The translations under genes and the position numbers were made by a program. The notes beneath the pieces were generated by a model. It made no database searches and was not told the origin of the DNA. It saw only the letters and a list, made by a program, of their open reading frames with translations. Source: Siphonodentalium dalli (lineage: Eukaryota > Mollusca > Scaphopoda > Gadilida > Siphonodentaliidae). Taken from it: a stretch of DNA of 64,000 nucleotides. The first letter of the stretch is position 1. Every line of letters starts with the position of its first letter. Positions 7,857 to 64,000 of this stretch are shown here, piece after piece. The stretch spans positions 100,840,278-100,904,277 of the forward strand of contig CP136069.1 in the NCBI GenBank assembly GCA_032622095.1. Direction: 5' to 3'.

Positions 7857-9008
7857 AGGATGTATTCGGTCTAGAAACTACAAAACGCAATCAGAAAGCC
7901 CTCCCTGTTGTGATTAAAATGATCCAAGTCCCATTCCGATCGCATGATAAATAACCCGTAAAATAAATAAATAATACCACCACCGGTATTCGGAGATTTC
8001 CTGGACTAAGCTACGAGTGACGTAGTTGTGGGAGAGCAAATTAAAAACACAGATTCAGAGCCAGAGTTTATTATGCTGACTACGATGACGTAATCGTAAG
8101 TCAGCCGATACTAAAATGCGGAGTCATATGTGCGCGTGTGGTGTATAGATTACGTCGCTATTCAATGTGTTATCTAATTAATAAAGATAGTGTGACCGCT
8201 TTGGCCGTTTATCTGGAATAGAAGACAATAACTATGTGAATAAAGTAATTAGTAGTGCCTAGAATGGTTGTTTTTGTAGCCATTAATAACATGCCAGAAC
8301 GTGTCTGCTTTGGTGAATAGATGGCAGTAATTAGCGCTTTGATTGTCTCGTATTCACTTGGTGATTTGTAATCACTCAGTGACTATTCATCAGTGTCAGT
8401 CGCAAACTTGTTTGCACTCTAAAATGCCCCAAAGTGAATAGAAAGGACGACGGAGGATCCCATTCACATGGTCATACACAAGAAGCGCCCAAATGTTATA
8501 TAAACACTGTGCTGAATAATGTTAACTCTATTTAGGCGCTTTTGTTTTTTGTTTTGTGTTTTTTTTTACTTTCAATATAAATATCCCGAGTATCTGTCAT
8601 CTCCACACATGCCAAGATGCCTAGTATATGTAGTGTGTTCGGTTGTGGGCGGGCTAGCGATCCATTATTAAGTACCTCCAAAAAGACAACACTGCGTAAT
8701 TTAGAATGCTCTTTATTGTCTACCGCTTTTGGGAGACGGAAGCATGGACGCTCTTTATATTTAAATGTCACAACACCATACAAAATCACCCATGACATAT
8801 AGAAATAGAGCACGTTCATAATTGAGAACGCTCTTTATTGTCTATACCGCGACGAAAACATGGACGCTCTTTATTAGAGGCAATCATTGGAATATTTTCT
8901 AGGCTTTTAAACAATTAAAAAAAAATCCTCTCTAGAAAATCAATATCTGCATCAAAACGTAAAATACAACAAACACAAACTGAAAAACAATGCCAGGCGA
9001 GCCTTCAA
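7857..9008. other. no supported gene; small direct repeat at 8709-8876
   Basis: GCTCTTTATTGTCTA, then a GACG(G/A)AA-type phrase, then CATGGACGCTCTTTAT, occurs twice (8709-8758 and 8834-8876). A 61-residue ORF at 8617-8802 begins like a THAP zinc finger (MPSICSVFGCGRAS) but lacks the later Cys/His pair. Confidence 0.4.
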
Positions 9009-49899: not shown

Positions 49900-50379
49900 C
49901 TACTTATTAACATCGTTGCAGTCAGGACAATTTTTGTATGTACATTTGGGATTCAGTTGATATGAAGATAGCCTATTTCGAGAGTAATCATTTTTGAACA
50001 TTGTTCGTGTTGGAAGACGTTTTAGTTTGTCGTCCAGGGAATTCCACATCTTCGGAAGATAGTGTTCTGGTAAGTTTTCCGAGAAGACACTTTTCGGTGT
50101 CCCAGATTTGAGCATACCATCTTGTCGCGTGTCATTTTGGGAACTTGTGAAGAATTTTTCAAATGAATTTGGTAACTGGTCGTGAAACCAGTCATGCACA
50201 ATGAGATTTGAATGCAGGGTATAGATATCATTAAATTTTAAAATGTCATTTGTTTTAAATAGCGGATCTGTGTGACTATTGTATTTTTTATTGTTTATTA
50301 TGCGCATGGATTGTTTTTGCAGTTTGAATACTCTATCACTTTTATTCGAATTTCCCCATATATGTATAGCATACATCAA
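49900..50379 (-). pseudogene. LINE-2 ORF2, C-terminal segment
   Basis: Carries RVFKLQKQSMRIINN, then YLPKMWNSLDDKLK, and ends with a Cys cluster (CTYKNCPDC). These are standard features after the RT of CR1/L2-like ORF2. A frame break separates it from the RT part. Confidence 0.8.
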
Positions 50380-50416
50380 ATGACTGAACTATTGCATAGT
50401 ATAACGATTTGAGTGC

Positions 50417-51101
50417 TTAGCGTGGTAAGAAGTGTTTAACTTTATTCAGACTATAATTTGCACTGGCAATTCTAGCGCACACATGATTTATGTGATGATG
50501 AAATTTCAAATTTTCATCCAATTTCACACCTAAATAAGTTAATGATTGTTCGTGTCTCGTGTTACCAACCTGTGTAATTTCGGTGTTGTTGATCCTAAGT
50601 GATAGATTATCGCCCCTATGCGAGTTGTTCATAGGATGAAAGAGAATATATTTACATTTTGAAGGATTTATTTGTATATAATTTGCACAACACCATTCGA
50701 AGAATTTTGCTATTTCGGTATTCATATACGCTTTTAAGTCGCGTGTGTTATTACCATATGTATATAGGGTTGTATCGTCAGCAAATGAAAGTAGCGAGAG
50801 GGTGGTTGCATCTTTCATGTCGTTAACGTAAATTAGAAAAAGAAGAGGTCCAAAAATCACCCCTGGGGCACTCCACAACTAACATCTAAAGTTTCAGAGA
50901 GTGTATTTTTAAAGCATACACATTGTTGTCTATTAACTAAATAGCTACGAAACCAGTCGTTTGTAAGACCTATAATTCCATAGTGGGATAGTTTAGATAA
51001 GAGTATTTCATGATTTATAGAGTCAAATGCTTTCGAAAAATCAACGAATAATGCTAATGTTGAATCTCTAGATATTTGGTCATTATTTTGTGCAACTGAA
51101 C
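50417..51101 (-). pseudogene. LINE-2 ORF2, RT catalytic segment
   Basis: Reads ALFVDFSKAFDSINHEIL (51,060 region), VPQGVIFGPLLFLIYVND and LLSFADDTTLY, then INPSKCKYILF and LTYLGVKLDENLKFHHHI. The RT core with FADD is complete in content, but a frame shift occurs near 50,878. Confidence 0.85.
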
Positions 51102-52310
51102 TTAGGAGTTGAATTGTTGGATGGTAGGTTGAGTGTTTGCTACGAAAACCATACTGGTGTTCGTATAATATATCATTGTCGTTAAGTCTCTGAGTCTGAT
51201 GGCCATTATTTTTTCCATAATTTTGGAAAATATAGGAAGTATACTTATCGGTCGATAATTATTGAAATTAGAATTATCGCCCTTTTTAAAGACTGGAATA
51301 ACTTTCGCCAGTTTCATGTCATCTGGAAATTTCCCCACTTTGAATGAACGATTAATTATGTGGACCAGTGGTTGTGCTACTTCATTAATTGTTACTTTCA
51401 TAAGTTTGCTGGAAATATTATTTAAATCAAGAGTATGTTTTGGTTTTATTTTGAATGCTGTTAGGATTACTTCTTGCTCATTTGTAGGGAGAAGTTTAAA
51501 AATATGTGGATAATGGCCCGTAAGATAATCTACATGTGAGTTTTCAGTATGAGGTATCGAGTTGACTATGTTGTGTCCAACATTAACAAAGAATGAATTA
51601 AAATGGGATGCAATCTCTTTTGGGTCAGATATGCGTTCGCCGTTGCTGATGAATTCGTTTGGTGGTATGAATGATGATTTATTCTTGCCAATTATACTTC
51701 TAAGGATTTTCCAAGTGGCTTTCATGTTGCCCCTGTTTTCATTGAAAATATTCTTATAGTAAAGCGATTTACTCTTCCTGATGACTCTATTATATATATT
51801 GTAGAATGTTTTATATTTTTTTATGTTTAGATCGGTTGGATTTTTTAGTTTCGTTCTATATAGTTTGTTTTTTGTATGCGAAGACGTTAGGACTCCAGAA
51901 GTGATCCAAGGATTTTGTTTTATGAATCTTTTAGGGATGCGAGTATTAGTTACTGGGAAGGCTGTATGGAATACATCAGTATACGTTGTAATAAATCTGT
52001 TGTATGATTCGTTTGGACACTGGCAATTGTATACATCATCAAACGATGATGTGGTAAGAATTTGTTTGAACAAGTTCATATTTTTTTGTGAACAAACTCG
52101 CCGATCACGCGTTGAGCTCATAAGTGGCGCCGGTGATTTAGTCCCATGCATGTAGAAACATGCCAAATGATAAGAAACATCGGTAATTATTATACCCGAT
52201 TCGTTATCATTCAAAACGTTATTTGAGAAAATGTTGTCTATTAGAGTAGCTGAGAATTCAGTTATTCTAGTAGGTCTGGTAATGGATGGTAAAAACCCTT
52301 CTGAGAACAT
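51102..52310 (-). pseudogene. LINE-2 ORF2, end of endonuclease to RT start
   Basis: A 402-codon open stretch. It begins in the last endonuclease motif (ATLIDNIFSN, ITDVSYHLA where SDH is expected) and continues through the linker (KNPTDLNIKKYKTFYN). It then enters RT with PLVHIINRSFKVGKFPDDMK, VIPVFKKGD and NYRPISILPIFSKIMEKIM. A frame break at the end separates it from the catalytic segment. Confidence 0.85.
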
Positions 52311-53037
52311 TGTATCGACGAATTTTTCAGTTTTGTTATGTGTGCCGAACTTTAATAAATCTATATTGAAATCACCGAATAAATAGCAATTTTTTGTGCT
52401 CGTTGTTTACAATACCTAATATGTTTTCAATCGACGATTGGAATACGTCTAAGTCAGCTAAGGGCGCGGTATTTGGTCTGTAGACACAACCGATGATGTA
52501 AGAATTTTTTTTTTCGGGAAATATTTCCAGGAACAGAGATTAAAATTTGTGAGGATTAAAAATTGTGAGATCGTCTCTAATTTTGTATGGTAAATTGTCA
52601 TTAACATAAACTGCCACGCCCCCTCTTCCGTCGTCGGTCTCTGTTCTCGTCTTATATAGGAGAGGGTGGTAACCTTCTAGAGAGAAATCTAGACCAGTTG
52701 TGTGTATTTTGAATACTTCTGTTAGTCCTATTATATCGAATATGTTGTTTTCTTGTTGAAGTTCACAGAGAAAGTTATTTAATTTATCCCAGTTAGCACT
52801 TAAACTCCGACAATTGAGGTTTAAGATGTTTGGCCCTTTATTGTTAGCGTGTTCGTATTTGGTTTTAAATTCTGAAGGAGATAGATATTGACAATTTTGA
52901 TCATGAAGATCAAATGGTGAGTCGGGAGATATTTCGTCTGGATCATTTGTATGTTTTAGAAGTTCCTCATATATTGTAGAAAAATCCATGGCTGGGTTCT
53001 CCTTGACCTCATCAATGCTTATTCTATGTGATGCCAT
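52311..53037 (-). pseudogene. LINE-2 ORF2, AP-type endonuclease
   Basis: Starts MASHRISIDEVKENP at 53,037. It reads LNLNCRSLSANWDKL, IIGLTEVF and GRGGVAVYVND, the order of AP-endonuclease motifs (Asn, Glu and GGV). A frameshift after HKF at 52,540 leads to the YIIGCVYRPN part in another frame. It would have nicked target DNA for first-strand priming. Confidence 0.8.
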
Positions 53038-53205
53038 TATTATAACATGTCACAATGAAAACATAACTGAGCGATGAACTAAGTAACAATTAAATAATGA
53101 ACAAGACTATTCACATTATCATGTATGATGTGCATGTATACGTTGGCGTATGTCATGTTAACCGCTGGCTAATTGTATTCTGTATTTACATTGAAGCCTA
53201 TTAAG

Positions 53206-53849
53206 CAAACGCCTTTGAAAAGTCGAGTATGGCTACGTCAACCTACTTTCCGTTGTCGTATTTTTGAAGTATGTCGTGGAGTGTGACTTCCAAGTGTGTC
53301 TCGCATGAGTATCCAGTTCTGAAGCCATGATTTAGTGATGTTAGGATGTTATTCTCCTCAAGATGTTTCATAATGTGGCGACATATTATATGTTACAGAA
53401 TTTTACAAGGGACTGATGTTAGGGATACCGGTCTTTAGTTTTCAGCCAGGTGCCTGTCTCCTTTTTTTTGTAGATAATTGACACGTTTGCCTTCAGCCAA
53501 TCTTGGGGGAGTTTGCCGGTGTCTAGGGAGAGCTTGAATATAAGTCTGAGAGCTGGTGCTAGTTCCTTTGCGCATGTCTTGAGTACCCGGTTGGGTATGC
53601 CGTCGGGTCCTGAGGCTTTGTTGGTCTTGAGTCTGTGTAGGAGAACTTCTATGCCTTTTATATCCAGCTCGGTGTTGCTGATGCTGTCATACTTCTTATC
53701 CGGTGGTGTTATATCCGTCTGATTCAGTGGTTCTTCCTTGGTGAATACGGACTGGAATTGTCGGATGAGTACTTCGGCTTTGCCTTTGGCGTCATCTATT
53801 AGGGTTCCTCCATCTTTTAGAGGTGACACTCCGATGTTATCGTGTCGTC
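53206..53849 (-). pseudogene. LINE-1 segment: start of reverse transcriptase
   Basis: Reads RHDNIGVSPLKDGG, FQSVFTKEEP, LKTNKASGPDGIPNRVLK, LIFKLSLDTGKLPQDW and, after a short gap, HGFRTGYSCETHLEV and VAILDFSKAF. The next codon lies across LINE-2 at 49,409. One frame break lies near 53,420. Confidence 0.85.
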
Positions 53850-55555
53850 TATGGCAAGCCGTTTTCACATTTTCGATTGATTTGGACGAATTGGACTTAA
53901 GTCAAAATACCACATAATTGTGAATTCGGCGAGGAATTGTACTTAAGTCCAAATGAATTACACTTAAGTCCAAATACAGATATTTTCATCTATTTGGACT
54001 TAAGTCCAATTCCTCGCCGAATTCACAATTATGTAGTATTTGGACTTAAGTCCAATTCATCTGTATAAGAAACATCCCCATCAGATATTAAGCAGGTCTG
54101 GTTTTGCTCATAGGGCGGAGTTGTGGGAAAATGGCCGTTTACATGTGGGTCTAATTCTTGTTGATCTTGTTAATTGTTACCTTTTTCAACATATATAATG
54201 AATCAGCTAGATGTGGACGAGATCATATCAACAATAGCCCGTGTTGTAAGAAGTTCGGAACGATTTTTAACGTATGATGATGTCTGTCTGTCAAAACATT
54301 ACATCGACTGAGTTGACATCGCTTGAGGTGGCCTCACTGACCAGGCTTCACTGATCAGTCAAAGCATTCTTTGATGTCTGCATTTTATTAGTATGGTGGG
54401 TAAATGTCCGGTGGGTAATTGTCCGGGTGGGGAAATGTCCGTATACCGATAATAATGTTACCAGAGTCCGACCAGGTAGATAAAATACCACCCCTTGCTC
54501 TTTATAATTTTAACCTGATAAAAAAGTTACAACTTATGTACAGGGTCCACACTCGATCGAGGCTGCATGCACTAATGGAATTATGACTGCTAATTTGTTT
54601 ATATATTTGACCAAATTTATAGAAATAGTGGGCTAAAGCGTATGTTAACACTGAGTCTGAGAAATATATAATGTAAATTATTTTTGCAATTTTCTTCTGA
54701 TCAAGCCAATTGATGCAAAGAAGTCTCTGTAGAATAGATTGACAAAGTTAACTGAGGCTGTGCTTCACGCAGTCATTACAATAGCAATAGAAGGGGAGTC
54801 ACTCTAATCTATTGTTTTGGCATAATTCGACTTTCGAGTACACCCTTATTACATTGAGTTTGAAAACCGAGCAAATTATACAAATAAGACACTTAGTAAA
54901 TGCAATAAACGAAACTGCGTGTAGCATACACTACATGCTGTCAAATGACAATTGAATCAAGTCGTGAATTAATTTTCATTCATGCATGCATTTAGCATTT
55001 ATTAAGATCCAATTCGGATTCGAAACATTTTCAATCTCGGCATGCCGAAAACAAGCCACGTGGCAAAGGGGACGTACGGAGTCAAGCTGTACGCTCATGC
55101 TATGATTTGTAAGTCCCGCGTAGCATAGGGGACTGAACTCTGTCTTGCAGTTTGGTACGGAATTAGTCTTGATTGACAGCCGTCTTGTGTATGCTTGGAG
55201 TCAGGAATGCCCTGGTTAGTACGGAGTTTGACTGTCAATCAAAACTTGCAGGAATATACCATTACAAAGAAGGGGACTATCGTTTCAAACCAGATGAATT
55301 GGACTTAAGTCCAAATGAATTGGACTTAAGTCCAAATCAATTCGCTAATTGGACTTAAGTCCAATTCATTTGGACTTAAGTCCAATTAATTGCACTTAAG
55401 TCCAATTATTGGACTTAAGTCCAAATAATTGGACTTAAGTCCAAATAATTGGACTTAAGTCCAATAATTGGACTTAATTCCAAATAATTGGACTTAAGTC
55501 CAAATCATTGGACTTAAGTTCAAATCAATCAAAAATGTGAAAACGGCTTGCCATA
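53850..55555. mobile_element. 1.7-kb TIR element packed with GGACTTAAGTCC palindromes
   Basis: Ends TATGGCAAGCCGTTTTCACA and its inverse (~35-bp TIR), flanked by GTCGTC (53,844-53,849 and 55,556-55,561). About five CTTAAG palindromes sit inside the left end and eleven inside the right end, nearly all TTGGACTTAAGTCCAA. No transposase ORF. Removing it with one GTCGTC rejoins LINE-1 as KARRHDNIG. The design resembles the GCGCTTAAGCGC MITE at 31.7 kb, although the TIRs differ. Confidence 0.85.
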
Positions 55556-55561
55556 GTCGTC

Positions 55562-56384
55562 GGGCCTTTATGTATTGCCAAAATGGTATGGTGGTGTTGT
55601 TCTTCAGCCCCTCGGTAATTTGGGTGTTGACAAAGTCTCATTCGGCTTTTCTTAATTCCCGTTTACACTCTCATTGTATCTGCCTGTAGTTTTCCCATTT
55701 CCCTGATCTTTTCGCTCTGTTGTATATTCTTCTCTTCTTTCTTAATAGGCGCTTCGTGTGTTTGTTAACCCAGGGAGTATTGTGTTTAGGTTTGATCATC
55801 TTTGATGGTATATGTTTTCCACGATCTCCTGGATTCCGCCTTTCAGTGTGTCCCACATGGTGCTGACGTAAGGATTCGTCAGTAGCCGAAGGCTTTCCCC
55901 TAGGATTGCCACTTCGTCCGCCACGGCTCCCCAATCCGCTTTCCCGTACATGTATATTTTGCGGGTAGGTGTGTCTTGGTGGTGAGCTTTCATGTCGAAG
56001 TCCGTCACTACCATGGCATGATCTGATATGCCTGGAATGTTGTTTGGTGTCTTCGCCAGTGATGGGGTTTGAGGTGAAGACTAAGTCGAGGAGGTGCTTT
56101 TCTCTTGTTGGTTTGTCGTGGATCTGTGTTAGTCCAGCTCTTGATGTAGCGTGAAGCATTTTTTCTTGGACTTCCATCTCTGGTGCTGGTTTTGTCACCA
56201 TCAGCCGTTTCCAATCCACGTTAGGGCAGTTGAAGTCGCCGCATAGGATGGTCTGTTTATTGTCTCCAGCTGCCAGTTTGATTGACTTCTCTAGCTCATT
56301 TATGTGTTTGTCCTCGCGGTGGGGCGTGTAGAAGGATCCTATCAGGATGTCTTTATTCGATCGTGCCTTTATCTTTACCCACAT
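55562..56384 (-). pseudogene. LINE-1 segment: end of endonuclease and linker
   Basis: Reads MWVKIKA..DILIGSFYTPH, TILCGDFNCPNVDW and HLLDLVFTSNP. In the next frame it reads ISDHAMVVTDF, the closing SDH motif of AP endonucleases, and then a basic linker (KMIKPKHNTPWVNKHTKRLL). Two frame breaks. Confidence 0.8.
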
Positions 56385-57292
56385 TATTTCGCAGTTGGTG
56401 ATGAGTCGTGGCTGCTCCGTTGATATGAGGCTTTTGTGTGCCAGGACGAAGACTCCTCCCCTACTGATTCTCTGTCGTTCCGATATACGTTGTAGTTTTC
56501 GGGGGAAATTTCACTTGATCTGATGTGCCCGTCTGTTGGTTTTTTGCCTGGTTTCACTCCGATCAGCCAAGATTCTGAGCCGCAGATGATGTCCGGTTTT
56601 ACATATTCTATGGTTGCTGCGAGTTCTGCCCTTTTATCCCTGATGCTCCGACAGTTCACAGTGAGGATTCTCAGGTTCCGTTTCGGTGGTAAATCGAAGG
56701 CGCTTGTATGGTTTTGTCTTGGTTCCCCTGTGGTGTTTGCTTTTGATGTGTTGTTTCGCGGTGTTGGTGTGCTCGTCTTCACTGGGCTAAAGGTCGATGG
56801 TGACTCAACAGACTCGATGGTGGAGTTTGGCTGCTCGTAGATGTTTGACGAGAGTTCGTAGCCATGGAAGGTGAATGAGTCCACGTTCATGCTGTCACAT
56901 TTGCAGCATATCCACGCTACACTTGATCTTTCGAGATCTCTAATATCTTGTGTGCAGTTCCCGAGGCAAGAGTGGTGATGCCAGATACTGCAGTGGTCAC
57001 AACAGACGCCACCCACGGACCATGTTACAGGTTTTTCGCAGAATCCGCATGGGTAGATATCCTTTGCCCTGGGTCCTGGTTGGGTTTCAATGTCACCGGA
57101 GAGTATTATCACCAGTAGGATCACGGACATTGGGTTTGCAGCTACAGGCAAATTCATTGGTCCTTTCCTGAAGGTCGCCAGTTTGCTGTTCAAGAGGCAT
57201 GTTGTCAGTTGCTGGTGGTACCATGATGTTGGTGTAAACTGCGCTTTTGCAGCTTGTAGTAGGACTAGTATCGCGACGTATGAGATGAGCAT
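56384..57292 (-). pseudogene. LINE-1 ORF2 start: 2A-like peptide, PHD finger, endonuclease N-terminus
   Basis: The ORF opens with a hydrophobic stretch. A 2A-like sequence follows at residues ~56-74 (VILLVIILSGDIETQPGP), then a C4HC3 PHD-type finger at ~81-132 (CGFC, CCDHC, WHHHSC, WICCKC). After a Ser/Thr/Pro linker comes the start of the AP endonuclease (LRILTVNCRSIRDKRAEL, KPDIICGSESWL). 2A-like sequences cause ribosome skipping and are known in some LINEs. Here Q replaces the usual N before PGP, so skipping may be weak or lost. A frameshift near 56,470 breaks the endonuclease. Confidence 0.8.
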
Positions 57293-58014: not shown

Positions 58015-58062
58015 TCAACGTTGGGTAAACTTTCCAATCAACAAATGTCATCAGTAGTAATG

Positions 58063-58276
58063 GTGGGCACTATGGCCCAGTACCCCCCAGACATGGGCAC
58101 TATGGCCCAGTACCCCCCAGACATGGGCACTATGGCCCAGTACCCCCCAGACATGGGCACTATGGCCCATGGGCCATAGTGCCCATGTCTGGGGGGTACT
58201 GGGCCATAGTGCCCATGTCTGGGGGGTACTGGGCCATAGTGCCCATGTCTGGGGGGTACTGGGCCATAGTTCCCAC
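58063..58276. repeat. 214-bp palindrome made of 30-bp tandem units
   Basis: Three and a half copies of a 30-bp unit (GGCACTATGGCCCAGTACCC...GACATG) are followed, with no spacer, by the same units inverted. The centre is ATGGCCCATGGGCCAT between 58,169 and 58,170. One mismatch near the outer ends (58,069 vs 58,271). It lies between LINE-1 and the virus-like block. Confidence 0.95.
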
Positions 58277-58422
58277 CCTGAGGATAGATGTTCCTGTCAT
58301 TGATGTGACATTTCTGATCGAAAAAATGAAAATGGACTTAGAATTATTTTTTTTCAAAAGGAAAATCTCACTTTGGAAAATATCAATTAGCAATCAAGAG
58401 TTTTTCTTTTCGAATATTTGGT

Positions 58423-58438
58423 GGCCCTGAAAAGGGCC
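58423..58438 (-). terminator. histone-type 3' stem-loop, copy 1
   Basis: On the minus strand it reads AAAAC, then GGCCCTTTTCAGGGCC (6-bp stem, TTTC loop), then ACC. It lies 19 nt after the stop of the OTU-like gene. A purine-rich stretch (AAAAGAAAAACTCTTG) about 15 nt further could act as the histone downstream element. Confidence 0.8.
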
Positions 58439-58457
58439 GTTTTATTTTTGTTATAGT

Positions 58458-58922
58458 TTAGAATCCGCCACATTGAACTTCTTTGTTCGCCAAAACTTCA
58501 ATTGATTTGTCTCCTCGCCTCATCCATATTTCGCATTCACAATAATGCTCGTGGCAAACGTGTGGGATCCACACTAGAGTTATTGATGACTTGAATCTTG
58601 GTGTTGATTTGTAGCCGCCTTTGGTAGCATCAAACATGACGATAGGTCGCTGTATAACAGTCGCCGCTAATTCAACCATCAATCTTGATTCAGCCAAAAG
58701 TGGTGTGCGCCGTAAATCTTGTGCCGACGCACCAAGTTCGTCACTCTCTGCGTAGTACAGGTCAACTGCCGCATCTCTCAGAATCATCCATCCATCGGTC
58801 GTCCCGTAAACCCCGAGGCTGAGTGCTCTCCAAAACAGCGATATTTCTTCACCGTACACTGCTTTACAGTATACCCCACCGGCCATTATCTCGTCAAGAT
58901 CTGTTATGTTTACAGCAGTCAT
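58458..58922 (-). CDS. OTU-like protein of the virus-like block, catalytic Cys replaced
   Basis: Start chosen at MTAVNITDLDEIM (58,922), because the sequence upstream from it is the duplicated promoter also found before the 60,529 start; 154 residues. The core EEISLFWRALSLGVYGTTDG, DLYYAE, a hydrophobic ATVIQRPIVMFD strand and HEHYCECE near the end follow the order of OTU-type domains (nucleophile loop, helix, strand, His). Where OTU proteases have Cys (DGNCLFRA), this has Ser plus one extra residue, so protease activity is doubtful. Similar Cys-less OTU folds occur in vertnin and related mobile-element or virus proteins. Ends at a histone-type stem-loop. Paired with the 59,546 gene. OTU assignment is by motif order. 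Confidence 0.6.
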   Translation of the reverse strand: MTAVNITDLDEIMAGGVYCKAVYGEEISLFWRALSLGVYGTTDGWMILRDAAVDLYYAESDELGASAQDLRRTPLLAESRLMVELAATVIQRPIVMFDATKGGYKSTPRFKSSITLVWIPHVCHEHYCECEIWMRRGDKSIEVLANKEVQCGGF

Positions 58923-59545
58923 CTTTGAATGTAGAATAAGTCTGAAGATCCGTCTTGAACATATATCACGATTGCGCGGGCGGTAGAGAAAGCACATGTC
59001 GCATTGACGTTAAAATGACAAATGCTCCCTGACGTTGTGTTTCTTTTCAGTGCATTATCTGTTAGTTTCACCATTTCGATATGATATAGATTAAATTCAT
59101 GATAGTATATGCAATTAATTAAGATATTTTAACATATGAATTCATCTTCGTTCATAAACGATGACCAAGTAAAGTTATCAATTGTAATGATGAAGAAAAA
59201 TGTTCAGTATGTTTTCTTGTGTTCAGTTTTATGTATAAAATATGTACATTTCCAAAACCAAAAACTAGAAAAACATTCCATATTTGCCTAACGAGGTAAC
59301 AAATATATCAATCATGTGTACCAAATAATAGATAATGATCTAACGAAATAAAAAACATTTGTTTGATCGCTATGCAATAATGATCAAGAAAAATATGAAT
59401 GCTGATCCGTCTCTGAAAAAACACAACGCCAGGAAACATTTGTCAATTTTAACGTCAATGCGACATGTGATTTCATTGACGCCCGTGTCAAATGTATAAA
59501 AATATTTTCGAATTTGATCAACGTTACATTGCATTGCTATCAAAG
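58923..59545. promoter_or_regulatory. symmetrical bidirectional promoter region, pair 1
   Basis: A ~62-bp element lies at 58,988-59,050 (minus) and again at 59,413-59,474 (plus), facing outward. Shared words include ACGTCAATGCGACATGTG and ACACAACG(T/C)CAG. TATAAA on the plus side at 59,495-59,500; TATATG on the minus side at about 58,960. The AT-rich middle is repeated in pair 2. Confidence 0.75.
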
Positions 59546-60034
59546 ATGGATCCGTTAACAGAATTTCTTCAGAGTGAGATATACAGTAATCCTGTTGTAC
59601 AGAATACATATGCGGCACCACAGTCAACAGGCCAAGCTAATACGACAATGACTATAGGTGGTGATACACTCATTTTAAAAGCGATTTTAGATGAACTGAG
59701 ATGTCTTCGCAGGGATATTGACGTGAAAACACAAGTAACGCATCAAGAAGTAAAAGTGAATCTTCGTTTCGTTGCAGAAGAGATAGATATACCAATCAGG
59801 GTTCATGATGTTCAGAGATCGAAAGAACAGAAACAGATCAAAAAAGAAAAAATATTGGCGGCGAAAGAAAAAGAACCTAAAAGTATCATGAAGCCTTCTA
59901 CTGAGACAAAAGTCAGATTTCGTCTTCCTTGTAAAGAATCTAAAGATACAGAGAAAAGTGATGAATTCGCAAAAGCTATTGGTTCTCATGGGAAAGATAT
60001 GTCAAGATATAAGAAAAACACAAAACGATGTTAA
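59546..60034 (+). CDS. unassigned 162-residue protein with basic C-terminus
   Basis: The start is the ATG at 59,546 (MDPLTEFLQSEIY). An upstream in-frame ATG at 59,492 overlaps the TATA box and is unlikely. The N-terminal half is mixed and has a helix-prone stretch (ILKAILDELRCLRRDID). The second half is very Lys/Glu-rich (RSKEQKQIKKEKILAAKEKE) and ends RYKKNTKRC. I do not recognise a family. A nucleic-acid-binding or scaffold role is only a guess from composition. TATAAA lies ~46 nt upstream; a histone-type stem-loop follows 22 nt after the stop. Confidence 0.7.
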   Translation: MDPLTEFLQSEIYSNPVVQNTYAAPQSTGQANTTMTIGGDTLILKAILDELRCLRRDIDVKTQVTHQEVKVNLRFVAEEIDIPIRVHDVQRSKEQKQIKKEKILAAKEKEPKSIMKPSTETKVRFRLPCKESKDTEKSDEFAKAIGSHGKDMSRYKKNTKRC

Positions 60035-60056
60035 AGTCAGATGATAATTTTAAAAC

Positions 60057-60072
60057 GGCCCTTTTCAGGGCC
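60057..60072 (+). terminator. histone-type 3' stem-loop, copy 2
   Basis: AAAAC, GGCCCTTTTCAGGGCC, then ACACACA; followed by CCCAAAAGGTTACTCTTTC as a possible downstream element. Confidence 0.85.
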
Positions 60073-60283
60073 ACACACATTTCCCAAAAGGTTACTCTTT
60101 CATTGCTGAAAAAATCAAAAACACGATTGTTCAATTTATATTTTATTCAACAACAAATATTTGCAAGTATATTTTGTTTTAAATTATTCGTGGCGTGATT
60201 TTTTCAAAACAAAACATAGGGTACAAAGAACATTATTAGTTCTTAAGCAATGCTAAAAGTTTTTCTTTTTGAAAAAATTGGTT

Positions 60284-60299
60284 GGTCCTGAAAAGGACC
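60284..60299 (-). terminator. histone-type 3' stem-loop, copy 3, with compensatory change
   Basis: Minus strand: GGTCCTTTTCAGGACC. The third stem pair is T-A instead of C-G, so the stem is kept while the sequence changed. AACC follows, then CAAAAAGAAAAACTTTT. Confidence 0.8.
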
Positions 60300-60311
60300 G
60301 TTTTTGTTTTT

Positions 60312-60327
60312 GGCCCTGAAAAGGGCC
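60312..60327 (-). terminator. histone-type 3' stem-loop, copy 4
   Basis: Minus strand: AAAAC, GGCCCTTTTCAGGGCC, 13 nt after the stop of the 62-residue gene and 12 nt before copy 3. Two such loops in tandem are unusual. Confidence 0.8.
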
Positions 60328-60340
60328 GTTTTGTATGGCA

Positions 60341-60529
60341 TCAAAGTTCACGCCACGATTTTCTTTTGAGACTTTTGCTTTTGTTCCAACGCTGTTGTTT
60401 TTTGCATATTTGCATAACCAGTTTTGCACTGGCGGTTACTTCTTTTGCGTGTCCGGCCCGCATTATCTGGGGTGTTAGCCCTATCGTTCCTCTTAGTATA
60501 GACATCAACGGTTCGGGGGTTTCGGACAT
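60341..60529 (-). CDS. unassigned small basic protein (62 residues)
   Basis: The start at 60,529 corresponds exactly to the OTU-like gene start: both are followed upstream by CATCTTTGAATG(T/C)AG on the plus strand. The protein reads MSETPEPLMSILRGTIGLTP, has a helix-prone middle (AKEVTASAKLVMQICKKQ), and ends in a Lys/Arg-rich tail (KSKSLKRKSWREL). No family recognised. Small basic proteins in DNA viruses are often DNA-packing factors, but that is inference. An overlapping frame (start at 60,557) lacks this start homology and is less likely. Two stem-loops follow. Confidence 0.6.
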   Translation of the reverse strand: MSETPEPLMSILRGTIGLTPQIMRAGHAKEVTASAKLVMQICKKQQRWNKSKSLKRKSWREL

Positions 60530-61425
60530 CTTTGAATGCAGAATAAAAATTGTTCACGGCCGTGTTTGAACATATATCACGATTGCGCGGGCGGTAGAGA
60601 AATCACATGTCACGTTGGCATTAAAAATGACAAATGTTTCCGGGCGTTGTGTTTCTTTACAGTGCATTATCTGTTAGTTTTACTATTTCGATATGTTATA
60701 GATTAAATTCATGATAGTATATGCAATTAATTAAGATGTTTTAACATATGAATTCATCTTCGTTCATAAACGATGACCAAGTAAAGTTATCAATTGTAAT
60801 GATGAAGAAAAATGTTCAGTATGTTTCTTGTGTTCAGTTTTTATGTATAAAATATGTACAATTCCAAAACCAAAAACTAGAAAAACATTCCATATTTGCC
60901 TAACGAGGTAATAAATATATCAATCATGTGTACCAAATAATAGATAATGATCTAACGAAATTAAAAACATTTGTTTGATCGCTATGCAATAATGATCAAG
61001 AAAAATATGCATGTTGATCCGGTTCTGAAAAAACACAACGTCAGGAAATATTTGTCAATTTTAACGCCAAAGTATTATGTGATTTCATTGACGCCCGTGT
61101 AACAATCTTGTGTTCAGTTTTATGTATAAAATATGTACAATTCCAAAAACAAAAACTAGAAAAACATTCCATATTTGCCTAACGAGGTAATAAATATATC
61201 AATCATGTGTACCAAATAATAGATAATGATCTAACGAAATTAAAAACATTTGTTTGATCGCTATGCAATAATGATCAAGAAAAATATGCATGTTGATCCG
61301 GTTCTGAAAAAACACAACGTCAGGAAATATTTGTCAATTTTAACGCCAACGCGACATGTGATTTCATTGACGCCCGTGTCAAATGTATAAAAATATTTTC
61401 ACTTTTTCAGTGAACTTCATTCATT
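60530..61425. promoter_or_regulatory. bidirectional promoter region, pair 2, with an internal ~280-bp tandem duplication
   Basis: Homologous to 58,923-59,545. The plus-side half is present twice (60,826-61,105 and 61,106-61,385). The inner copy has lost the end of the promoter (AAGTATTATGTG for ACGCGACATGTG, and CAAATGTATAAA missing). TATAAA at 61,386-61,391 serves the 61,426 gene. Confidence 0.75.
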
Positions 61426-61722
61426 ATGCCGTCGTTAAAGAAATTTATCAAGAAGTTATGGAGGAAGAGAGATTCAGAGGAGACGAAAATAAGAACATAT
61501 AGGAAATGGCAGGATTCTCCTGAACAAAAGGTGGTACAGAAACAGATGCTAAGAGATTTTCTGGCTCGGCGACGACCATCGCCTGAAGTATGCGATCAAG
61601 CAATCAAGAATCAAGAATCAAGCAATCTTGATCTCGTGGAGATCTTGTCACAGATCTCGAAGAAAGATCTGTGCAATGCAGCAATTGACAGCTTCGCTCA
61701 GGCTGCTGCGGCGCACAGATAA
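61426..61722 (+). CDS. unassigned 98-residue protein, basic N-terminus
   Basis: Starts MPSLKKFIKKLWRKRDSEET, 35 nt after a TATAAA box. The first half is amphipathic and strongly basic (Lys/Arg at 5, 6, 9, 10, 13-15); a DFLARRRPSPE motif follows, and an acidic to neutral helix (LDLVEILSQISKKDL) precedes an Ala-rich end. No family recognised. Composition would suit a nucleic-acid- or membrane-interacting structural protein. Followed 85 nt later by a histone-type stem-loop with ACCCACA flank, the closest match to the canonical form. Confidence 0.7.
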   Translation: MPSLKKFIKKLWRKRDSEETKIRTYRKWQDSPEQKVVQKQMLRDFLARRRPSPEVCDQAIKNQESSNLDLVEILSQISKKDLCNAAIDSFAQAAAAHR

Positions 61723-61807
61723 AATCCTACTTGGTCTGTGACAATTAATCCCAACGGGATATATCCTGATTTGGCAGAATTTTTATGAATTCTGGAAAAG
61801 AAAAAAC

Positions 61808-61823
61808 GGCCCTTTTCAGGGCC
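61808..61823 (+). terminator. histone-type 3' stem-loop, copy 5
   Basis: AAAAAAC, GGCCCTTTTCAGGGCC, ACCCACA, then CCCCAAAAGGTTACTCTTTC. Confidence 0.85.
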
Positions 61824-61891
61824 ACCCACATTCCCCAAAAGGTTACTCTTTCATAGCTGAAAAAAACAAAACACGATTGTTCAATTCATAA

Positions 61892-61912: not shown

Positions 61913-62539
61913 TCAAATGTTTGTATCGATTCGTTTATCTGTTTTTGGAATGTAGAATGGTCTCAGCTTCTTTTTCTTGGAAGTTTTCTTGGAATTTTCA
62001 AAATCTGGATTTTTATCTTCAGATTTGTTCTGTGAATCATTCGTAGGATCAACAGGTCGGGGTTGTTTGAAAACATCTGATGTTGTAGACATCTCTTCAG
62101 TTTTGATATCTGCATTTTGTTCTTGTATTGTTACTGCTTGTAGACATTTTTGTATAGTTTTCACATTTTTTTTGTCGCCGAAATCTGTTTTACAATGGAA
62201 GGACCAATGGGATTCTTGTCCGCATTTGTAACAGTAACCATATGGCGGTTTCCAATTTTTATCAGCTTTGTTTTTCTCTTGTTTCTCTTGCCATTGCATT
62301 TTGTTACAAAGTTTAAACAAATTGGCAGAGATCTGTCTCATTTCGACAAGATTATCTTGAATTTTTCTAGTCTGTGGCTGTGTAGATTTTTTTGAATCTT
62401 CTTTATGTAGCTCAATATAGCTCTCTTCAATAACTGCAGGCCTTGGTCTTTTTCTAACAATATCTTCTTCGCTGGCGGCGTCGTCTGAAACAGGTCTTTT
62501 AATTCTCTTAAACATTTTTGTCTTGAGTTTTGTCAGCAA
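61913..62539 (-). CDS. CCHC zinc-knuckle protein (208 residues)
   Basis: The N-terminal ~40 residues (MLTKLKTKMFKRIKRPV..., RKRPRPAVIEES) lie in the palindrome and are identical to the start of the divergent polymerase gene. The basic clusters look like nuclear localisation signals. A second Met (MFKRIK) is an alternative start. A single CCHC knuckle follows at mid-protein: CYKCGQESHWSFHC. The C-terminal half is acidic/polar and ends in a Lys-rich stretch (KKTSKKKKLRPFYI). It is probably a nuclear single-strand nucleic-acid binder. Ends with AATAAA rather than a stem-loop. Confidence 0.7.
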   Translation of the reverse strand: MLTKLKTKMFKRIKRPVSDDAASEEDIVRKRPRPAVIEESYIELHKEDSKKSTQPQTRKIQDNLVEMRQISANLFKLCNKMQWQEKQEKNKADKNWKPPYGYCYKCGQESHWSFHCKTDFGDKKNVKTIQKCLQAVTIQEQNADIKTEEMSTTSDVFKQPRPVDPTNDSQNKSEDKNPDFENSKKTSKKKKLRPFYIPKTDKRIDTNI

Positions 62540-62805
62540 AAAATATTGCGACTGGCTTCTTCGGAGTTGAAGTGTAAAGTGTAGAATTACATCTGCTTTT
62601 ATAGCATTTTCATCGCGAATGCTATAAAAGCAGATGTAATTCTACACTTTACACTTCAACTCCGAAGAAGCCAGTCGCAATATTTTTTGCTGACAAAACT
62701 CAAGACAAAAATGTTTAAGAGAATTAAAAGACCTGTTTCAGACGACGCCGCCAGCGAAGAAGATATTGTTAGAAAAAGACCAAGGCCTGCAGTTATTGAA
62801 GAGAG
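62421..62805. repeat. perfect 188-bp inverted repeat with 9-bp loop: shared promoter and shared N-termini
   Basis: Arms 62,421-62,608 and 62,618-62,805 are identical in reverse complement by eye; the loop is TTCATCGCG. Each arm carries a TATAAAAG box (62,623-62,630 plus; 62,596-62,603 minus), the 5' leader and the first ~40 codons. The divergent products therefore begin with the same residues and part ways right at the arm ends. Confidence 0.95.
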
Positions 62806-63388
62806 CGATATGGAAACTGATAAGGTAGAAAATGAAGAGAGCGATATGGAAACTGATGAGGCAGAAAGTGAAGAGAGCGATATGGAAACTGATAGGGCAG
62901 AAAGTGAAGAGAGCGATATGGAAACTGATGAGGCAGAAAGTGAAGAGAGCGATATGGAAACTGATAGGGCAGAAAGTGAAGAAAGTTCTAGTGATGGGCA
63001 GATTGGACGCGGTCGAAGACAGAATAGAGAAATTGGTGGGAAGAGAAAGAGAAGTCTGGCTAGAGAGCGTGTTGTGTTCAATCCAACAAAATATTTCAAA
63101 ATGGAGCTGAACTCGGAGAAATTTTCCAGAAAATTTAAATCAGCATCACGACAATTTGGTGTGAAATTCGAGAAATTTACAGATCCAATCGAAAACATTC
63201 CAGAGATATTTGAGAAGTTGACAGAAGAATTGAAACAGAAATGTTCAGCAAATGAGAAGACAAGAATCAGAGTTACGATAAATCATCCAGGACTTGATAT
63301 GAGCATTTTCATTCCATTCACAAAAGCCAGTGAATTGAATGGTCGGACACTCATGGATAATATTCAAATGTGGTTCAATCAAATGTAG
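62687..63388 (+). CDS. N-terminal part of a Polinton/adintovirus-like DNA polymerase B gene (up to a frame break)
   Basis: Starts at MLTKLKTKMFKRIK (62,687), 57 nt after TATAAAAG. After the shared N-terminus come five 12-residue repeats (EESDMETD[K/E/R][V/A]E[N/S]; 36-bp units, 62,798-62,977), then a basic patch and a folded region (KYFKMELNSEKFSRKFK, ending MDNIQMWFNQM). The frame then meets TAG at 63,386-63,388, while the continuing polymerase region lies in another frame from 63,385. It would be the leading, possibly nuclear-targeting, part of the replicative polymerase. The frame break may be a real mutation, an assembly error, or a natural boundary between two proteins. Confidence 0.6.
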   Translation: MLTKLKTKMFKRIKRPVSDDAASEEDIVRKRPRPAVIEESDMETDKVENEESDMETDEAESEESDMETDRAESEESDMETDEAESEESDMETDRAESEESSSDGQIGRGRRQNREIGGKRKRSLARERVVFNPTKYFKMELNSEKFSRKFKSASRQFGVKFEKFTDPIENIPEIFEKLTEELKQKCSANEKTRIRVTINHPGLDMSIFIPFTKASELNGRTLMDNIQMWFNQM

Positions 63389-64000
63389 CCTTTACAATTC
63401 ATGACGGTGCACTCAATTTCGAAATCTTCGTTACAGATATTCCGGAAGGTGGTACACGACACTCACTACATTATGGACCATTTGCAGACAAGAACAAGTT
63501 GACAAAAGTAAAAAGAAGTATTGTCCGGATTGAAAATGCTGATGATGTTATGTGTATGGCAAGATCTATTGTCGTCGGAATGTGTAAGGCAGATAGTGAT
63601 GGATCTGCGTGCTGGTCAAAGATATGGAAAAGAATAAGACAATCAATATACACAGCACAAACAGATGCAGCAAAAAATCTACTCAACCGTGCTGGCATTC
63701 CACACGATACAGTTTGCAGTATCAATGAGTTCCACAAGATTCAAGAAATATTGTATCCAGAATATGTTGTGAAAATTCACAATGAATTTGCTGGCGCTGG
63801 ATTTCTATTTGAACCTGCAGAAATGTGTTCGGATAGCAAATGTGTACACATCTACTACAACAACAATCACTTCGACACCATAACATCAATCAAAGGATTT
63901 CTAGGCACCAGCTACTACTGCGAATCCTGCGACATTGGATTCCATATGCATGGCGATCATCGATGCAGATTTGTTTGTGCATGCTGGTCATTGACACAGT
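63385..64000 (+). CDS. Polinton/adintovirus-like DNA polymerase B, upstream domain (runs off window)
   Basis: Open for 205 codons to the window end. It carries the arrangement known from the N-terminal region of protein-primed family-B polymerases of Polintons and related viruses: a KRSIVRIENADD segment, a W...RI..S helix region, an HFDTITS strand, and a Cys/His zinc site (YYCESC, HRCRF.CAWC). The exonuclease and polymerase motifs would lie beyond 64,000. It is offset by one base from the preceding frame. The family is assigned by motif order; which group of elements it belongs to cannot be settled without integrase or capsid genes. Confidence 0.65.

Follow-up and report, generated by a model that had tools for sequence, protein, structure and literature searches.

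We found that four small genes, A, B, C and D, within a 64,000-nucleotide (nt) stretch of the genome of the scaphopod Siphonodentalium dalli (hereafter the window) are followed by hairpins of the kind that ends metazoan histone mRNAs. The genes form two divergent pairs (A-/B+ and C-/D+) and, judged by the genes around them, make up the left end of a provirus of the adintovirus/Maverick type. Five hairpins of the sequence GGYCCTTTTCAGGRCC lie in this block, each 3' of a stop codon and on the strand of its gene (Table 1). In histone mRNAs, SLBP sits on the loop and the U7 small nuclear ribonucleoprotein (snRNP) on a downstream element, and cleavage leaves a loop-ended mRNA that is used in S phase. 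We consider it quite probable that, in this provirus family, the four mRNAs likewise end in the histone-type stem-loop, and that they would depend on SLBP and U7, lack poly(A) and be linked to S phase. These observations suggest that the virus took over, for some of its genes, the machinery with which the cell ends its S-phase mRNAs.

An earlier note on this DNA had placed five such hairpins on the correct strand 3' of the four genes, and all are present: the pattern GGYYCTTTTCAGRRCC, with up to two mismatches, matched the window five times, whereas in 100 shuffles it matched 0.26 times on average and at most twice. A relaxed rule for SLBP-type hairpins returned six sites, these five and one at 8266, which is taken as chance; 30 simulated sequences averaged 0.4 sites and never had more than 3. 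On the strength of the shuffles and the simulated sequences we rejected a chance origin of the five hairpins. When the hairpins were scored with the Rfam covariance model of the histone 3' untranslated region stem-loop (RF00032, Histone3; gathering score 34 bits), a check that the note had proposed, four of the five passed the cut-off (37.1-41.8 bits). The hairpins carry AAAAC on the 5' side, and A, B and D carry AC on the 3' side. The compensatory change that the note had reported is real, and lies at the third stem pair of hairpin C2 (60284-60299), where C-G has become T-A. Hairpins C1 and C2 stand in tandem, 12 nt apart, so that C2 occupies the downstream side of C1. In the window the distance from stop to hairpin is 19 nt for A, 22 nt for B, 13 nt for C and 85 nt for D, and in the three host histone genes measured it is 29-35 nt. 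The range of 13-85 nt given in the note thus describes this copy correctly but does not extend to D in general, as the 85-nt gap is peculiar to the window copy with its D of 98 amino acids (aa).

The host's own histone genes end in the same element. A search of the host genome with RF00032 found at least 75 loci (the best 75 of 409,530 first-pass candidates, all 75 over the cut-off), mostly in arrays on contigs C5 and C8; a piece of contig C5 encodes H4, H2B and H2A, identified by eye. The same 16-mer, GGCCCTTTTCAGGGCC, was present in 20 of 20 host histone loops from six array loci, some of them overlapping, and the comparison with host histone genes that the note had called for showed H4, H2A and H2B ending in the identical hairpin. 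We then compared the 45 nt 3' of each viral loop with the best of six host tails, using 1000 shuffles. The match was equalled by 0 shuffles per 1000 for A, 6 for B, 0 for C and 49 for D, and, when the first 8 nt were left out, by 4, 55, 0 and 943, respectively. By this comparison A and C clearly appear to carry a host-like downstream region, and their tails were most likely derived from a host-type histone gene. B and D have an A-rich AAAAGGTTACT, which may or may not be functional. The host also has an SLBP gene: the RNA-binding domain PF15247 matched two stretches on host contig C2, at 60.6 and 31.4 bits, the latter with one stop within its frame, and the two are probably two exons. Taken together, the Rfam scores, the strand and place of the hairpins, their identity to the host hairpin, the host-like regions downstream of A and C, and the host SLBP gene support the note's description of these sequences as histone-type 3' ends.

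By analogy with histone mRNAs, host SLBP would bind the viral loop and the purine-rich downstream element would base-pair with U7 snRNP, with U7-dependent cleavage of the viral pre-mRNA a few bases 3' of the loop. The resulting mRNA, without poly(A), is predicted to be stable and to be translated largely during S phase, and the A-D block would thus be produced during DNA replication. Gene E, the contrasting case, has AATAAA 16 nt 3' of its stop and no hairpin, and its mRNA would presumably be polyadenylated in the usual way; the provirus would therefore run two kinds of mRNA end. The benefit may lie in S-phase timing, in a protein supply matched to DNA synthesis, or in freedom from poly(A) control.

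We see as possible, and no better than that, an alternative that overlaps our interpretation in mechanism and differs in purpose, in which the gain would be the mRNA without poly(A) rather than S-phase timing, for example in SLBP-rich eggs, or during a shut-off of poly(A)-dependent expression. It would produce the same anatomy, and it is in keeping with the restriction of the loops to part of the gene set and with the poly(A) signal of E. We found no sign of such a shut-off, however, and nothing separates this alternative from S-phase coupling.

The arrangement of the two gene pairs gives further evidence. The A/B and C/D promoters share a 575-nt stretch at 92% identity, which runs as far as the A and C start codons and ends there; the tails of B and D are 90.5% identical over 116 nt, beginning 5 nt 5' of the hairpin, and those of A and C are 80% identical over 56 nt. 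In contrast, the coding parts of A-D shared nothing in a DNA self-comparison, and no protein alignment was obtained for A with C or for B with D. Since promoter and tails are repeated while the coding sequences are unrelated, the repeated unit is the promoter plus the histone-type ends, not the genes. Promoter and tails were thus copied together, as a cassette, around coding sequences that are not related, and this modularity is, in our view, the second surprising feature of the locus. A host histone origin of the promoter was considered and rejected, as none of the matches listed linked the A/B promoter to the six host histone loci compared. We lean, if only slightly, toward the idea that an animal DNA virus built a portable, duplicated cassette of one divergent promoter and two histone-type ends, which would bring a block of its non-histone genes under SLBP and U7, restrict synthesis of their proteins to DNA replication, and allow coding sequences to be swapped with promoter and ends retained.

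The block is also present in other proviral copies. We compared 64 copies, consisting of the 20 first-listed loci, the 40 lowest-scoring of 150 gene-A matches, and four from the list of host hairpins. Among the copies covering each site, the hairpin was unchanged in 60 of 63 for A, 43 of 47 for B, 35 of 38 for C2 and 33 of 38 for C1. From 70 sources (the 64 copies, the window and five further loci), we collected 249 hairpin sites having at most three mismatches and an AAAAC-like flank, a definition that excludes more decayed sites, and two forms accounted for 221 of them. Each of the 12 pair-breaking forms occurred in a single copy; the sole variant that recurred within one gene (GGTTC/GGACC, 8 copies) keeps a G-U pair. 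When 20 near copies were set against 21 far ones, with the 23 intermediate copies excluded, the hairpins had no fixed differences in 64 columns, compared with 31 in 623 for the promoter, 7 in 149 between B and C, 18 in 465 in the A coding sequence and 24 in 489 in that of B. We regard this conservation as modest support for a function of the hairpins.

The hairpins might alternatively have been captured with a fragment of a host histone gene and be passive passengers, the real 3' ends lying at poly(A) sites further on. The host-derived look of the A and C tails would agree with this, as would an AATAAA 194 nt 3' of the C stop, another 12 nt 3' of the A stop and ahead of the hairpin, the close relatedness of the copies and the modest outcome of the conservation test. 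We nevertheless judge it unlikely, because the hairpin keeps its place near the stop in four genes on both strands. Gene A is 154 aa with a 19-nt gap in 55 of 64 matched frames, and, for B, 32 of the 48 frames in the 12 commonest classes give 162 aa and a 22-nt gap. In six other copies, C is 62 aa with a 13-nt gap in four and 58 aa with a 25-nt gap in two. Among 15 frames of D with a stop in other copies, nine are 116-121 aa and stop 18-19 nt from the hairpin; one of the rest is 112 aa (28 nt) and five are cut down to at most 86 aa, and a sixteenth frame ran off its piece. Passive capture also fits poorly with the joint duplication of promoter and tails around differing proteins, and with the spacer 3' of hairpin A, where 5 of 20 columns hold fixed differences, against 0 of 16 in the hairpin itself. 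Finally, B and D have neither AATAAA nor ATTAAA within 400 nt of their stops in the window. That the hairpins work on DNA, or as plain terminators or RNA-stabilizing hairpins independent of SLBP, is very improbable: the loops are indeed GC-rich palindromes 3' of stops, and C has a tandem pair, but a generic hairpin would need neither the exact histone loop and flanks nor the compensatory pair nor the host-like region downstream of A and C.

Several results weigh against our interpretation that the four genes use the histone mRNA-ending system. Hairpin C1 (60312-60327) scored 22.2 bits, under the RF00032 cut-off; the region downstream of B matches the host only marginally, and that of D has no host match past the first 8 nt. 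A search for host U7 snRNA gave no RF00066 match, yet the controls of the same search were equally silent. No relatives with the feature were found outside this genome in the databases searched. Among rare hairpin forms, 12 break a pair and 6 keep one (one form is in both lists), which is near the random expectation that 12 of 72 substitutions keep a pair and fits free decay of single copies after insertion. Neutral change at 5% would predict about 3 fixed changes in 64 columns, and other non-coding stretches are also quiet, with 1 difference in 80 columns past the A tail, 0 in 24 3' of hairpin B and 0 in 28 3' of C2. Because these stretches are as conserved as the hairpins, our confidence in the interpretation is slightly reduced.

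The viral ends share with the metazoan replication-dependent histone mRNA end (RF00032, SLBP/U7) the hairpin, the loop, the A-rich 5' flank, the short distance from the stop and the host 16-mer and, in A and C, the purine-rich downstream region. They differ in that the provirus genes are viral and non-histone, the promoter is unlike the six host histone loci, and C has tandem loops. The provirus shares with adintoviruses/Mavericks (Polintons) PolB, a Pox_A32-type ATPase, an rve integrase with a C-terminal chromodomain and, at a score just under the cut-off, an adenovirus-type protease, and adds to these the histone-type 3' ends on four genes. Animal viruses with histone-related parts, namely bracovirus H4 and the adomavirus Histoid genes, are described in the available text of PMC11071296 and PMC12819152; those viruses carry histone-related protein, whereas the provirus here is histone-like in its mRNA end only. 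In the available text of PMC11071296 the word stem-loop was not found and the two histone passages are about proteins, and none of the terms stem-loop, SLBP, polyadenyl and replication-dependent appears in that of the review PMC9145170. No precedent for histone-type ends on non-histone viral genes was found in the open-access literature, subscription papers being outside this coverage. The parts are known, and their combination, histone-type ends on non-histone viral genes, is new. If our interpretation is true, this locus would be an exception and would serve as a natural tool for learning what minimal sequence SLBP/U7 processing requires in a gene that does not encode a histone; it would also represent a new viral route to S-phase gene timing or to escape from poly(A)-based control.

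Searches of sequence collections for such relatives gave the following results. Hairpin matches in IMG/VR (three contigs for the viral form, four for a wider form) included none at the Rfam cut-off and are taken as chance. In viral contigs, patterns from the PolB N-terminal piece, the hexon-like protein and the ATPase alignment matched 8, 3 and 76 stretches, respectively, of which zero were confirmed; in prokaryote genome contigs, the ATPase alignment matched 39 stretches, with zero confirmed, and in phage records the PolB piece had zero matches.

A Pfam search of all four proteins, A, B, C and D, gave zero matches. B, C and D are basic and A is acidic. The ratio of nonsynonymous to synonymous substitution rates (dN/dS; Table 1) is given for A and B alone, since C had only 24 changes and D no gapless copy. 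Protein A yielded 29 candidates among 5.8 billion proteins, zero of them significant, and a profile search of the PDB gave two matches, the better at E 0.44. The record of the better match says RNA-dependent RNA polymerase; we take it to be a viral OTU domain. The likeness of protein A to such a domain is faint, and the catalytic cysteine usual in OTU domains is unconserved in the protein A alignment. An AlphaFold model of A had a mean predicted local distance difference test score of 38.5 and was not used.

Table 1. Features of the proviral gene block and its surroundings (positions in the window; pI, isoelectric point; ORF, open reading frame).
Feature	Position	Strand	Details
Hairpin A, histone-type	58423-58438	-	RF00032 41.8 bits; 19 nt 3' of stop
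Hairpin B, histone-type	60057-60072	+	RF00032 40.1 bits; 22 nt 3' of stop
Hairpin C1, histone-type, first of tandem pair	60312-60327	-	Exact pattern; RF00032 22.2 bits; 13 nt 3' of stop
Hairpin C2, histone-type, compensatory T-A pair	60284-60299	-	RF00032 37.1 bits
Hairpin D, histone-type	61808-61823	+	RF00032 40.2 bits; 85 nt 3' of stop here, 18-19 nt in long-D copies
Downstream region A: ACCAAA, purine-rich GAAAAGAAAAACT, ATTGCT	58389-58422	-	Like histone downstream element
Downstream region B: ACACACATTTCCCAAAAGGTTACT...CATTGCT	60073-60110	+	Shuffle test against host tails
Downstream region C: CAAAAAGAAAAACT...GCATTGCT	60246-60283	-	84.6% identity with a host histone tail across 65 nt, hairpin included (among the matches listed)
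Downstream region D	61824-61868	+	Shuffle test against host tails
Gene A, 154 aa, pI 5.0	58458-58922	-	ORF; Pfam none; dN/dS 0.27 (62 gapless copies pooled; no significance test attached)
Gene B, 162 aa, pI 9.3	59546-60034	+	ORF; Pfam none; dN/dS 0.41 (35 gapless copies pooled; no significance test attached)
Gene C, 62 aa, pI 10.7, very basic	60341-60529	-	ORF; 9 full-length copies, 6 gapless, 4 of those stop-free
Gene D, 98 aa here (early stop), pI 9.8	61426-61722	+	ORF; 116-121 aa in 9 of the 15 stop-containing frames from other copies
Gene E, 200 aa, CCHC-type motif	61913-62515	-	Pfam matches under cut-off; AATAAA 16 nt 3' of stop
Divergent promoter A/B	58923-59545	.	58920-59488 repeated at 60527-61100
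Divergent promoter C/D, copy of A/B promoter	60530-61425	.	Further partial repeat 61106-61400
DNA polymerase B frame, part	63394-63999	+	Open frame continues past window; PF03175 in next piece

The note had also placed the block in a Polinton- or adintovirus-like context, and this is borne out by PolB, an ATPase, a chromodomain integrase and a protease-like gene at the same locus. Rightward of A-D come gene E, a palindrome and the DNA polymerase gene. PolB matched PF03175 at 1.5e-25 at the same locus past the window, and its N-terminal piece, where an OTU-like domain would be expected in an adintovirus/Maverick, had no Pfam match. The packaging ATPase (Pox_A32-type) matched PF04665 at 35.7 bits (cut-off 22.8; 8.2e-9). 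In the integrase, the chromodomain PF00385 reached 25.7 bits (cut-off 25.1) and rve 22.5 bits, under its 32.6; the adenovirus-type protease matched PF00770 at 20.2 bits (5e-4), just under the cut-off of 21.3. Two ORFs at the places expected for penton and hexon had no Pfam match, and we presume these identities from position. In the protein collection, 194 of 219 ATPase candidates were significant; therefore, the element belongs to a broad group. The available text of PMC11071296 includes a retrovirus-like integrase with a C-terminal chromodomain in the definition of adintoviruses/Mavericks.

Gene A has at least 150 matches in the host (the best 150 of 651 candidates), of which 30 are at 100% identity, the window copy included, and 8 contain a stop. 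The PolB piece likewise has at least 150 (the best 150 of 1163 candidates). No histone loop was found in element pieces L032, L033, L044 and L085 or in L034-L036, and the feature is therefore limited to A-D in the sequence covered, which extends rightward to the end of L085 with a gap of about 1 kb between L044 and L085.

Additional observations were made at and around the provirus. On host contig C1 (276523413-276534733), two copies of the block lie 8.3 kb apart and align with the window in an equal pattern. A 403-nt inverted duplication of 97% identity (62412-62814) lies between genes E and F, and its divergent ORFs share their first 32 residues. The polymerase frame (62711-63999) is open for 1002 aa in the window copy, as against about 1363-1414 aa in many other copies. 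Just outside the left gene block, 58062-58277 is a 216-nt inverted repeat (99%) of GGGCACTATGGCCCAGTACCCCCC units, with microRNA family matches under the cut-off. Several minus-strand ORFs at 49900-57292 resemble, by eye, pieces of a reverse transcriptase and endonuclease of the long interspersed nuclear element type, and an ORF at 3-1001 resembles, also by eye, the C-terminus of a Penelope-type or GIY-YIG protein. Finally, a packaging ATPase 65% identical to that of the provirus occurs in a 4.6-kb contig of a Candidatus Thiodiazotropha taylori metagenome-assembled genome; this is probably clam DNA in that assembly, hinting at relatives in the symbiont's hosts.

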